64,000 nt of DNA, taken from the NCBI GenBank assembly GCA_003605115.1, contig QZKY01000015.1, forward strand, positions 372,001 to 436,000, given 5' to 3'. The notes beneath the pieces are model-generated. The model was not told the origin of the DNA, did no database searches, and saw only the letters and a program-made list of their open reading frames with translations. Both the position numbers and the translations under genes were made by a program. Source of the DNA: Oxalobacter sp. (GTDB lineage Bacteria; Pseudomonadota; Gammaproteobacteria; Burkholderiales; Burkholderiaceae_D). Shown here in pieces: positions 24,880-35,090 of the stretch. Every line of letters begins with the position of its first letter. Within the stretch, counting starts at the first letter, position 1.

Positions 24880-25779
24880 GTGAAAAAAACAATTATTGCA
24901 GCAAGCGTATGCAGCCTGATGTTGGCTTGTGGTGTTGCCCACGCCAAGGAGGGCGGCGATCAATACCCAAATGGCGCAGAAACCTGGTTCGCTGGTGCGG
25001 TTCCGCCGCCCGGCAATTATTTCATCAACTATCTTGGCCACTACAGCGGCGATCTCAAGGATGCCAGCGGCCACAATGTCAATCAAGCAGGCGATGGCGG
25101 CCCTGCGAATGTGAATTCGAATTTTGCCAGTTTCCGTTTTTTGCAAACCACAAATCAAAAACTCTTTGGCGCTACTTGGTCATGGCATGTGATCGTCCCG
25201 GTGGTTGACTTGGAAATTGATCGCGGTGGAAAGGCCGGTGCAACCGGCGTTGGCGATATCACGGTCAGCCCCCTCATTCTGGCTTGGCATGGCAGCGAAT
25301 GGCATACCGTTGCGGCGCTGGATATCAACTTGCCGACAGGCGAATATGATGAGCACGACGCGCGCAAGAGCATCGGTGCCAACTACTACAGTTTTGAGCC
25401 GGTTTTCGGTGTAACTTATCTTGGCAAGGGCGGGTGGGAAGCGTCAGCCAAATTCATGTACAACATCAAAACAGAAAACGAGGACACCAACTATCAATCC
25501 GGCGATGAATTTCACGTAGATTATCTGGTCGGCAAGCATTTTGGTAATTGGGGTGTGGGCATCAACGGTTATTACCTGAAGCAGGTGACAGACGACAAGC
25601 AAAATGGCAGCAAGGTTGCACCAGACGGTTATCGCGGCCAGGTCTTTGCGTATGGCCCCAGCGTCAAGTACACCACCAAGGGCGGCACACACTTGATCGC
25701 CCAATGGCAGCATGAGACGCATGTTGAGAATCGTTTTGGTGGCGACAAGTACTGGCTCAAGATGATCATGCCGCTCTGA
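24880..25779 (+). CDS. Outer-membrane SphA / phenol MetA-type protein
   Basis: A 299-aa exported beta-barrel-like protein. The signal peptide is KKTIIAASVCSLMLACGVAHA, followed by a transporter-like barrel with alternating aromatic strands: NYFINYLGHYSGDL, GVGDITVSPLILAWH, ALDINLPTGEYDEHDARKSIGANYYSFEPVFGVTYL. These match the family annotated as MetA-pathway phenol degradation or SphA, proposed to take up hydrophobic substrates. The start is GTG at 24880 with AAGGA seven bases upstream. The 296 bp before it show no other gene. A bidirectional terminator follows. Confidence 0.85.
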   Translation: MKKTIIAASVCSLMLACGVAHAKEGGDQYPNGAETWFAGAVPPPGNYFINYLGHYSGDLKDASGHNVNQAGDGGPANVNSNFASFRFLQTTNQKLFGATWSWHVIVPVVDLEIDRGGKAGATGVGDITVSPLILAWHGSEWHTVAALDINLPTGEYDEHDARKSIGANYYSFEPVFGVTYLGKGGWEASAKFMYNIKTENEDTNYQSGDEFHVDYLVGKHFGNWGVGINGYYLKQVTDDKQNGSKVAPDGYRGQVFAYGPSVKYTTKGGTHLIAQWQHETHVENRFGGDKYWLKMIMPL

Positions 25780-31219: not shown

Positions 31220-32854
31220 TTATTTCGGATCGAGGCGAATTTGTTCTCGCATGGTCGGCACCAGCACACTCGGAAGGGCTTTGGGGAGCGTTTCAGGATA
31301 ATCCCGACTGCAATGCAAGCCGCGACTTTCATTGCGTAATAATGCGCTTTTGACGATCAACCAGGCGGATTCCACGAGGTTGCGCAGCTCAAGCAAATCG
31401 CTGGTGATGCGGTAATTGGCATAGTATTCGTCGATTTCTTCGCGGAGCAACTGGATGCGACGTTTGGCGCGATCCAGGCGCTGTGTGGTGCGCACAATGC
31501 CGACATAATTCCACATAAAGCGGCGTAACTCGTCCCAATTATGCGAAATGACCACTTCTTCAAACGCATTGGTGACGCGGCTTTCATCCCAGCCAGGCAG
31601 GGTCGGGAGTGTGACAGGTTTTTGTGTCTGGATATCTTGTGCCGCCGCGCGCCCCATGACCAGACATTCGAGCAGGGAGTTGCTGGCGAGGCGATTGGCA
31701 CCATGCATGCCCGTGCAGGCAACCTCACCCACCGCATACAGTCCCTGCACATCGGTACGGCCGCGCGTGTCTGTCACGATGCCGCCGCAGGTGTAGTGCG
31801 CGGCGGGAACGATGGGGATAGCTTGTTTGGTGATGTCAATGCCGAAGTCTCTGCATGTGGCGAGAATGTTGGGGAAGTGCGATTGCAAAAACTCCGGCGA
31901 TTTGTGGGAAATGTCGAGGTGAATATAATCCAGACCGCGTTTTTTCATTTCAAAGTCAATCGCACGTGCAACAATATCGCGCGGCGCGAGTTCGGCGCGC
32001 GTATCGTATTCCGACATGAAGTGTTTTCCGGCATCAACCCCGGCTTCCGGCGGAAGCCGAAGCAAGCCGCCTTCGCCGCGAACCGCTTCTGAAATCAGGA
32101 AAGATTTTGCGTAAGGGTGATACAGGCAGGTTGGGTGGAACTGGATAAACTCCATGTTTGATACGCGACATCCTGCGCGCCATGCCATGGCGATGCCATC
32201 GCCTGTGGCGGTGTCAGGGTTGGTGGTATAGAGATATACCTTGCTCGCGCCGCCCGTCGCCAGCACGGTATGTTTTGCGGCAAAGGTATTGACGGCGCGT
32301 GTTTTTTCATTGAGCACATACAGGCCGTAACACTGTGGCGATGCGGTTTTGATACCGAGCTTGTCCGAGGTAATCAAGTCGATGGCAAAATGATTTTCGA
32401 AGACAGTGATGTTCGGGCTGTTGCGAATTTTTTCTTCCAGCGTGCTTTGCACGGCGTGACCCGTTCCATCCGCCGCGTGGATGATGCGGCGATGACTATG
32501 TCCGCCTTCTCGGGTCAAATGGTATCCGGATTGAGACGTGGCATCCTTGGTGAAGGGAACACCTTGCGCGATCAGCCACTCAATGGCTGACCTGCCTTGT
32601 TCCACGACATGCTGCACGGTTGCATAGTCGCAGAGGCCTGCGCCAGCGGTCAGGGTGTCTGAAATGTGCTGCGAATGACTGTCTTCTGTGTCAAGAACGG
32701 CGGCAATGCCACCTTGCGCCCAACTGCTTGCGCCAATGCTGAGCGCGCGTTTGGAGACGATGGCGACTTTGTTTGTTGCGGCAAGGTGCAGCGCCACGGA
32801 GTAGCCAGCAAGACCGCTGCCAACAATCACAACGTCGAAATTCTGTGTGTTCAT
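31220..32854 (-). CDS. nadB: L-aspartate oxidase NadB
   Basis: The first step of de novo NAD synthesis, oxidising aspartate to iminoaspartate. The FAD motif [17 protein letters not shown] is at the N-terminus, then [26 protein letters not shown]-like ([15 protein letters not shown]), [26 protein letters not shown] and [21 protein letters not shown]. Length is 544 aa. No nadA or nadC lies in the window. It heads the minus-strand run toward the hpn and chr genes. Confidence 0.95.
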
Positions 32855-33100
32855 TGTTATGCAAGTGAAATAGATTCCAAGCTGCCACTATATTCGATTT
32901 GGTCTCTTTTTGCCTCTCAAAACCTTGATTTGAGGCATGATGCGTGCAATCGTGCAGACAATCCTGATACTTACTCACCTTTTTGGGGCGTGACACAAAA
33001 ACACTGCTGCCCAAAATAGTGGCATTTAAGGCTGAGAACGAGAGATTTTGCATGACTTCTCCCTGTTATTTGAGAGACTTTGCTTCAACGGAGGAGTACA

Positions 33101-33190
33101 ATGGGAGGGCAGCATGTAGTAGAGCCGTTTTTCATTATGAAAATTGGCGAAAATTTTGTAGTACTTTTAAACTCTAAGGAAGTATCATGA
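33101..33190 (+). CDS. Candidate 29-codon ORF upstream of a membrane micropeptide
   Basis: A very short ORF beginning MGGQHVVEPFF and ending NSKEVS. It is preceded by a strong ribosome-binding site (GGAGGA, five bases before the ATG). Its stop codon overlaps the ATG of the next short ORF as ATGA, the layout of translational coupling. No homology is recognised. It may be a leader peptide controlling the downstream ORF, or a partner protein, or chance. Confidence 0.4.
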   Translation: MGGQHVVEPFFIMKIGENFVVLLNSKEVS

Positions 33191-33267
33191 ATAACATGTT
33201 AATAAAGTCTATCGTTATTGTTGTCGTGGGCGTAGTCGTTACGACTGGCGTCATCATGATGGTTTGA
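33187..33267 (+). CDS. Candidate 26-aa transmembrane micropeptide
   Basis: A 26-aa ORF with Met-Asn-Asn-Met then a lysine (KSIVIVVVGVVVTTGVIMM), i.e. one nearly uninterrupted transmembrane helix. AAGGAAG lies six bases before its ATG, which overlaps the preceding ORF's stop. Two hairpins follow directly. The composition resembles small hydrophobic proteins of type I toxin systems or transporter-regulating micropeptides, but no specific family is recognised. It sits in the nadB-recJ gap, on the strand opposite to both. Confidence 0.55.
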   Translation: MNNMLIKSIVIVVVGVVVTTGVIMMV

Positions 33268-33310
33268 GAATAAACCATAGACTGATGGGGGATTGCAATC
33301 GCAATCTCCC
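33259..33310 (+). terminator. Two hairpins at the end of the micropeptide ORF
   Basis: ATGGTTT/AAACCAT (33259-33278) spans the stop codon, and GGGGATTGC-aatc-GCAATCtCC follows at 33287-33310. Neither has a long T-run, so termination is uncertain; the second could also serve recJ on the other strand. Confidence 0.4.
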
Positions 33311-33383: not shown

Positions 33384-35090
33384 TCACGCATTTGATCGTG
33401 ACGCTTGAGCGTGTTCGACAATCAACTGCACGCGCGTGCTGCCGTTGAATTCGTTCGCATCCAGGCGGAACGCAATGCTTGCTTTTTCAGGCAGTGCATC
33501 GGTGTGACCAAACCAGATGGCTTCGTACTGTCGTCCATTTTTTTCCAGCAGCAGCTTCGTGTGTTTTTCCTTCAGAATACGCTGGCTTTTTACGCGGAAC
33601 TCATCACAAAAGATCGGCGCGGGAAAGCCTTGTCCCCAGACATGACTGTCGAGCAATTCGATAAATGCGATGGAAAAATAAGGATCTTCCAGTGCGCCAT
33701 CGGTTTCGATGACTTGTTCGAGTTGCGCTGGATGAATCAACGCGCTGCCGATTTTTTCAAAAGCTTCCGAAAAGGCTTCAAAAGCATCTTCCCGAATCGT
33801 CAATCCGGCTGCCATCGCGTGACCGCCAAATCGTTCAATCAGGTTTGGCGAATGTTTTGAAACCAGATCAAGCGCGTCGCGCAGGTGGAAGCCGGGAATG
33901 GAACGCCCCGATCCTCTGATAAAACCATCGCTTCCCGGTGCAAAGGTAATGGTCGGACGAAAAAATTTGTCCTTGAGTCGCGATGACACCAGTCCCACAA
34001 TGCCTTGGTGCCATTCCTGGTTGTAAAGCGTGATCGTGGTTTTATCCTTCGGCTCAAAATTTTCCAGATGCGCTAAGGCACTTTCCTGCATGTCGACTTC
34101 AATTTCACGTCGCTCAATATTGATTTCATTGAGTTGGCGCGCCAGCTCCCAGGCGCGCCCTTCATCGTCCGTCAAGAGGCATTCGATCCCAAGCGTCATG
34201 TCGGCCATGCGACCTGCGGCATTTAACCGCGGGCCGATGGCATAGCCCAAGTCGAACGGGCTTGCCTGTCGCGTTTCACGTCCTGCTGCGCGAAACAATG
34301 CGGCGACACCCGTTTGCATTCGTCCCTCGCGAATACGCTTCAAGCCTTGCGCGACCAGGATGCGATTGTTGGCATCGAGTTTGACCACATCCGCAACCGT
34401 ACCCAGTGCGACAAGATCAAGGAGCGCATCGAGGCGCGGTTGTGTCTGCTCGTCAAATTTTCCGCGCTGTCGCAATGCTGCACGCAAGGCCAGCAAGACA
34501 TAAAAGATGACGCCAACCCCAGCCAGATTTTTGCTGGGGAAACCGCATCCGGGCTGGTTGGGATTGACGATCACGCTGGCCGCGGGGAGGGTATCTGCCG
34601 GCAAGTGGTGATCCGTGATGACGACGTCGATGCCGCGCTGGTTTGCTTCGGCGACACCGTCCAGACTGGCAATGCCGTTATCAACCGTGAGAATGATGTC
34701 CGGTCTTTTCTCGTTTGCGACCAGCGCGACAATCTCCGGCGTGAGGCCATAACCATATTCAAAACGATTCGGCACGATGTAATCAACTTGTGCGCCCAGC
34801 GCACGCAAGCCTCGCATACCCACGGCGCAAGCCGTTGCGCCATCGCAGTCATAGTCGGCCACGATGACCATTTTTTTCTTTGCATCGATGGCATCCGCCA
34901 GAAAATGCGCAGCAGCATCAAGGTGCATCATGCCTGAAGGCGTATGTAGCCCGCGCAATTCGATGGAAAGCTCGCTTGGGTTGCTGACGCCGCGTGCAGC
35001 CAATAAACGTGCGAGAACCGGATGAACGCCTGCCTGACGCAGCGTTTCAGCGATTCGGAAAGAGTAGGGGCGGGTAACAATGCGTTTCAT
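33384..35090 (-). CDS. recJ: Single-stranded-DNA exonuclease RecJ
   Basis: A 5'-3' ssDNA exonuclease of the DHH phosphoesterase family used in recombination and mismatch repair. Motifs: VADYDCDGATACAVG at ~76-90, LTVDNGIASLDG, VVITDHHLP at ~155-163, NPNQPGCGFPSKNLAGVGV, and GPRLNAAGRM. The 568-aa length fits. Its ATG overlaps the rpfE stop as ATGA, so it is the second gene of a coupled pair. Confidence 0.95.
   Translation of the reverse strand: MKRIVTRPYSFRIAETLRQAGVHPVLARLLAARGVSNPSELSIELRGLHTPSGMMHLDAAAHFLADAIDAKKKMVIVADYDCDGATACAVGMRGLRALGAQVDYIVPNRFEYGYGLTPEIVALVANEKRPDIILTVDNGIASLDGVAEANQRGIDVVITDHHLPADTLPAASVIVNPNQPGCGFPSKNLAGVGVIFYVLLALRAALRQRGKFDEQTQPRLDALLDLVALGTVADVVKLDANNRILVAQGLKRIREGRMQTGVAALFRAAGRETRQASPFDLGYAIGPRLNAAGRMADMTLGIECLLTDDEGRAWELARQLNEINIERREIEVDMQESALAHLENFEPKDKTTITLYNQEWHQGIVGLVSSRLKDKFFRPTITFAPGSDGFIRGSGRSIPGFHLRDALDLVSKHSPNLIERFGGHAMAAGLTIREDAFEAFSEAFEKIGSALIHPAQLEQVIETDGALEDPYFSIAFIELLDSHVWGQGFPAPIFCDEFRVKSQRILKEKHTKLLLEKNGRQYEAIWFGHTDALPEKASIAFRLDANEFNGSTRVQLIVEHAQASRSNA

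Follow-up and report, generated by a model that had tools for sequence, protein, structure and literature searches.

We analysed a 64-kb stretch of DNA, here called the window, in which nadB and recJ enclose a gap with two very short reading frames on the opposite strand, ORF1 and ORF2 (Table 1). The frames overlap as ATGA. An earlier note, made from the sequence alone, had described both frames and their overlap, an AAGGAAG Shine-Dalgarno (SD) sequence, two hairpins and a TTTTGGG/CCCAAAA inverted repeat, and all of these elements lie where it had placed them. No co-directional gene follows directly downstream of ORF2. Given that the downstream gene, recJ, is convergent with ORF2, the latter cannot serve it as a leader or attenuator peptide.

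Table 1 Features of the nadB-recJ gap in the window and of related loci in Oxalobacter
Feature	Position	Strand	Remarks
nadB	31220-32854	minus	one flank of the gap holding ORF1 and ORF2
Alternative promoter-like GTGACA-N16-CAAAAT	32990-33017	+	9/12 matches, ~1 expected by chance; within the TTTTGGG/CCCAAAA repeat
Probable -10 element TACAAT (GAGTACAAT)	33097-33102	+	~85 nt before the ORF2 ATG; aligned GTANAAT-like in 8 relatives
ORF1, 29 codons, judged not a gene	33101-33190	+	frame not conserved; start overlaps the -10 element
Predicted 5′ untranslated leader	33109-33186	+	possible weak hairpin over the SD, z -0.6, not significant
SD sequence AAGGAAG of ORF2	33176-33182	+	4 nt before the ATG
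ORF2, putative small membrane protein gene	33187-33267	+	peptide MNNMLIKSIVIVVVGVVVTTGVIMMV; orthologues: both sister genomes, O. formigenes, O. paraformigenes
Stop-codon hairpin ATGGTTT/AAACCAT	33259-33278	+	stop codon in loop; kept in sister genomes
3′ hairpin GGGGGATTGC-AATC-GCAATCTCCC	33287-33310	+	conserved after the small ORF in 8/8 genomes
recJ	33384-35090	minus	other flank of the gap; convergent with ORF2
Structured 5′ leaders, GCACC/GGUGC	L058:3364-3455; L073:6066-6154; also in L176-L178		
24-aa small ORFs with leader and hairpin	L176:2409-2778; L177:1013-1382 (minus); L178:2402-2771		tatD-ankyrin gap

The predicted ORF2 peptide has 26 amino acids and contains one helix (approximately residues 8-26), which is preceded by a basic residue at position 7 and includes Gly15 and Thr19-Thr20. 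Judged by composition, its hydropathy peaks at 2.86 in a 17-residue window, and a single transmembrane segment makes up nearly the whole protein. We searched the entire 64 kb for ATG-initiated ORFs of 20-40 amino acids with a hydropathy of at least 2.7 over 17 residues, and ORF2 is the only one that also has an SD sequence. In sequence randomised with an order-1 Markov model, hydrophobic ORFs of this kind arise at a rate of 0.1 per 64 kb, and none has an SD sequence. ORF2 is thus beyond chance. The window also contains, at position 25539 on the minus strand, another hydrophobic ATG ORF of this length (MLADQIIYVKFIAGLIVGVLVFCFDVVHEFG) that reaches the hydropathy threshold and lacks an SD sequence.

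A DNA search of 40 relatives identified matches at 74% identity in two other genomes of the window's genus, G001 and G002; the matched segment begins shortly ahead of ORF2 and ends shortly after the 3′ hairpin. Both genomes encode MGQYLVRSIIIVVVGAVITTGLVAMV, flanked by nadB and recJ, and both preserve the SD sequence and the ATCATG context of the start codon. A profile search added MKNSAMALRALFIVIAGVVVTTLFIQAV (E 6e-14) and MNNMVLRSLVIVIAGIVVTTLWIQAV (E 1e-11), which occur in O. paraformigenes HOxBLS and O. formigenes HC-1.

The substitutions among these genomes show that the ORF2 frame, which is shorter than 50 amino acids, is under purifying selection. G001 and G002 differ at four positions in ORF2, all of them third positions of codons. 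Six of the seven ORF2 pairs compared have a pN/pS of 0-0.62 (0.43-0.62 for the window against each relative); the remaining pair, G002/G113, has a pN/pS of 1.10 (P 0.10), and the test indicates no constraint for that pair. When substitutions were scattered randomly, the observed amino acid identity between the window and a relative was matched in only 0.06-0.5% of trials. The four closest peptides exhibit a third-position bias, conservative replacements and an undamaged frame, and they share K/R7, I11, V12, G15, V17, T19, T20 and a C-terminal V, including a GxxxT pattern. Clustering of the conserved residues on one face of the helix was not significant (p ~0.2). The earlier note had proposed conservation and selection in related genomes as a check of its reading, and on this check ORF2 fared well: its frame is intact and selectively maintained in the closest genomes. 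The hydropathy and the conservation likewise support the note's view of ORF2 as a small single-helix membrane protein, and its expectation that standard annotation would skip such a frame is supported as well.

In total, eight genomes have a recognisable unit that consists of an SD sequence, a single-helix ORF of 24-28 codons and a GGGRGRTTGY/GCRATCTCCC hairpin. The unit is present in all three genomes of the window's genus, each time between nadB and recJ. In the genus Oxalobacter, it occurs in 5 of 13 genomes and is invariably flanked by tatD and an ankyrin-repeat gene; O. formigenes and O. paraformigenes account for two of the five. Inspection of the same slot in the rest of the genus revealed three more units (in G149, G132 and G008), whose peptides have 24 amino acids and a single helix (MNTSNIIAGVFVLAAAVCVAVLVM and MSKSNIIGAVVVLVAAVCVAFAIM). 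Their hairpins are GGGAGGTTGT/GCAATCTCCC and GGGAGATTGT/GCAATCTCCC. In four other genomes (G163, G198, G176 and G187), the unit is missing and the ankyrin frame directly follows tatD. Profile comparison found no match between the 24-aa and the 26-aa peptides, reflecting strong divergence in the three Oxalobacter genomes, and the central Gly15 is absent from the shorter peptides. What links the 24-aa members to the family is solely their position, leader and hairpin. In O. formigenes (L058:3485-6670), nadB comes immediately past the ankyrin gene and is encoded on the opposite strand. In both genera, therefore, only a few kb separate the small gene from nadB, in differing arrangements.

Both hairpins that the earlier note saw beginning at the ORF2 stop codon were found, and they differ in their distribution. 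The stop-codon hairpin has the arms ATGGTT/AACCAT in G002 and includes one G-U pair in G001, and was not seen in the Oxalobacter loci. The 3′ hairpin is stable (-17.5 kcal/mol, z -4.6) and is the one conserved in every member. Its 3′ arm reads GC(A/G)ATCTCCC in all eight genomes, and changes in the 5′ arm still permit pairing via G-U. A T-rich tract follows it in both Oxalobacter loci that were scanned, and the window has a poor T tract. This hairpin is probably the transcript end.

The gene is apparently undescribed and, from the genomes searched, restricted to this lineage. Pfam and NCBIfam searches with ORF2 gave nothing significant, and neither the window nor seven relative loci came near a gathering score in Rfam. 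Genomes were searched as one per species. An exact search for the hairpin in 84,980 species genomes returned 58 stretches; once these were filtered for a short hydrophobic ORF immediately upstream, four proved to be family members. We judge the other stretches to be chance occurrences. Nine viral contigs contain the hairpin, none of them with a short hydrophobic ORF upstream. A combined model of SD sequence, ORF and hairpin, applied to 394 genomes, recovered the held-out O. paraformigenes member (2e-12); the next-best matches, when read out, were mostly rpoA starts. No convincing positional counterpart was found upstream of nadB in 28 other genomes of the family. Nonetheless, the true spread of the small gene may be wider than two genera, because remote relatives escape the search models, the first of which missed the 24-aa members.

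ORF1 behaves differently. In G001 and G002 its ATG is missing and indels break its frame, and it bears no relation to the short frames that terminate close to the start of ORF2 in these genomes. We therefore rejected the translationally coupled pair that the earlier note had proposed, since ORF1 fails the test that the note itself had set, namely conservation of the frame without disrupting indels in relatives. Also rejected was the reading of GGAGGA...ATG as an SD sequence and start codon of ORF1, as it overlaps a -10-like element that is aligned in all eight genomes. In this alignment, GAGTACAATG of the window corresponds to GTACAAT, ATACAAT, GTAGAAT and GTAAAAT. A transcript specified by this element would start 3′ of the supposed ORF1 start codon. 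Given that the alignment places a -10 element there, ORF1 is most simply explained as a promoter region read as a frame, and would not be translated. Of the two frames in the note, ORF2 is thus real, and ORF1 does not hold up as a gene. The case shows that a -10 promoter element can be mistaken for an SD sequence and a start codon when only sequence is read.

The remaining promoter signals are less uniform. The Oxalobacter spacing at the aligned -10 element is ATGACT-N16/17-TAGAAT. The -35 element of the window is weak, the best candidate being AGACTT with a 16-nt spacer, and a promoter scan of the window did not call the -10 element. The TTTTGGG/CCCAAAA inverted repeat (32981-33016) is present as the earlier note described it, but is not conserved.

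The five Oxalobacter units are preceded by a structured 5′ leader. These leaders have in common CGT..GCACC.A..CGGT, then GGTGCATTT, then ACT. Their GCACC/GGUGC helix is invariant, and the outer helix has one double change, from A-U to G-C. All 40 of 40 cells of the aligned helices pair, versus 22-57% when the partner is slid. A covariation score as high as the observed one is reached by 45 of 500 shuffles, and because only five related sequences contribute, covariation is no more than suggestive here. Single-sequence folding is clearly significant in G132 only. A model of the leader finds it in these five genomes, once per genome and exclusively before the small gene, with no match in 310 other genomes or in the window, and the leader has no match in Rfam. 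The possibility of a leader-controlled small protein, which the earlier note had raised, is thus supported for the Oxalobacter relatives alone, given their conserved structured leader; no such leader was found in the window. On a speculative and rather unlikely reading, the Oxalobacter leader (CGU.GCACC.A..CGGU ... GGUGCAUUU ... ACU) would be a novel regulatory RNA acting in cis, perhaps with alternative folds that exclude each other. In a gut oxalate degrader, it would turn on the synthesis of a peptide that tunes the membrane, and the window gene would be the same device with a diverged leader.

From these comparisons, ORF2 is very probably a real, translated gene. The explanation that we moderately favour overall is a free-standing gene, with its own promoter-like site, SD sequence and terminator-like hairpin, for a 26-residue single-helix protein that would reside in the inner membrane and tune it. 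The basic residue at position 7, followed by about 19 hydrophobic residues up to the end, suggests by the positive-inside rule that the N-terminus would face the cytosol. The helix could pack via Gly15 and Thr19 into dimers or onto a partner helix. The peptide might be made under some stress or growth-phase condition and, much as YohP does in E. coli, might tune either the membrane itself or one of its proteins.

YohP is a 27-aa protein that contains IGLLVVTGV and requires Gly15 for dimerisation (PMC7549839). Its production lowers the membrane potential without killing the cell, and the stringent response is induced (PMC12719787). The window has VGVVVTTGV at the positions of the YohP sequence, and Gly15, central in the YohP family, is present in the four closest peptides. 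An hhalign comparison of the ORF2 family with YohP gives a probability of 72% over 25 ungapped columns, with Gly15 aligned to Gly15. Composition-preserving shuffles rarely equal the YohP profile score. However, 1.7% of 344 natural transmembrane segments match or exceed the score that YohP reaches against the ORF2 family, and YohP is therefore a working analogue only. By this analogy, a YohP-like mode of action is a tentative suggestion, which we hold with clearly less confidence than the existence of the gene.

Other roles for the locus have to be weighed against membrane tuning. Acting on a particular complex is common among small membrane proteins (PMC12719787), and the GxxxT kept in the four closest peptides would suit an accessory subunit, or a regulator, dedicated to a single membrane complex such as a transporter, an oxidase or a sensor. 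However, the gene stands alone, in no operon with a complex, and is found in only eight genomes of two genera, so that a core complex is less likely; we regard this role as unlikely. The earlier note had also suggested a type I toxin, in which case the peptide would depolarise the membrane and a small RNA, antisense or trans-acting, would keep it silent. Its size and shape fit, given that most E. coli type I toxins have 18-51 amino acids and that DinQ is a single-helix toxin of 27. In the window, a 14-nt stretch (32962-32975) shows 86% complementarity with the SD/start region (33177-33190), but this pairing was not reported for G002 or for O. formigenes and is probably due to chance. We looked for a complement of 18 nt with at most two mismatches, as expected of a nearby antisense or small RNA gene, and found none within some 1.5 kb of the gene in the window, in O. 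formigenes or in the sister genome CTSoil_111. ORF2 has one confident copy per genome, and tblastn against plasmids and phages found no match. With no coupling, antisense RNA, plasmid or phage copy, or match in Pfam, NCBIfam or Rfam, the toxin suggestion is weakened and appears quite unlikely.

The RNA itself might matter more than the peptide. Across genera the peptide drifts but the 3′ hairpin, and its 3′ arm GCRATCTCCC in particular, is retained, as might be expected of a regulatory or dual-function RNA whose active element is the hairpin, with the peptide in a lesser role. We consider this improbable, since the closest genomes exhibit purifying selection on the frame and, in the two Oxalobacter loci scanned, the hairpin passes as an ordinary terminator. 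Finally, ORF2 is very short and has no database family, both of which would also be true of a functionless hydrophobic frame that merely precedes a hairpin. Such a chance ORF is contradicted by the comparative data, namely the conservation, the third-position bias and the common hairpin and gene position, and is extremely improbable.

The locus adds a small membrane protein gene, apparently unannotated but supported by selection, to a bacterial branch to which Oxalobacter formigenes, an oxalate degrader of the human gut, also belongs. The eight genomes, with their conserved residues, leader and hairpin, also constitute a comparison set for probing YohP-like peptides outside E. coli. The family would be more interesting still should a regulatory function of the Oxalobacter leader RNA be borne out.

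Among known systems, MgtS, AcrZ and CydX, small regulators that act on membrane complexes, are also single-helix proteins of fewer than 50 amino acids. They are likened to ORF2 via the literature and general knowledge, not via sequence, and ORF2 differs from them in having neither a linked complex nearby nor a sequence family match. The type I toxins with a single transmembrane helix, DinQ and TisB as well as TimP, resemble ORF2 in length, in hydrophobicity and in the untranslated leader before the ORF, whereas for ORF2 no antisense RNA was found, and the gene is single-copy and not mobile. YohP occurs in other lineages and has two flanking lysines, while ORF2 has one basic residue before the helix. 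Both proteins consist of one helix with almost no soluble part, carry Gly15 at the same position and are encoded by free-standing genes, and the ...VTTGV of the window resembles the VVTGV of YohP.
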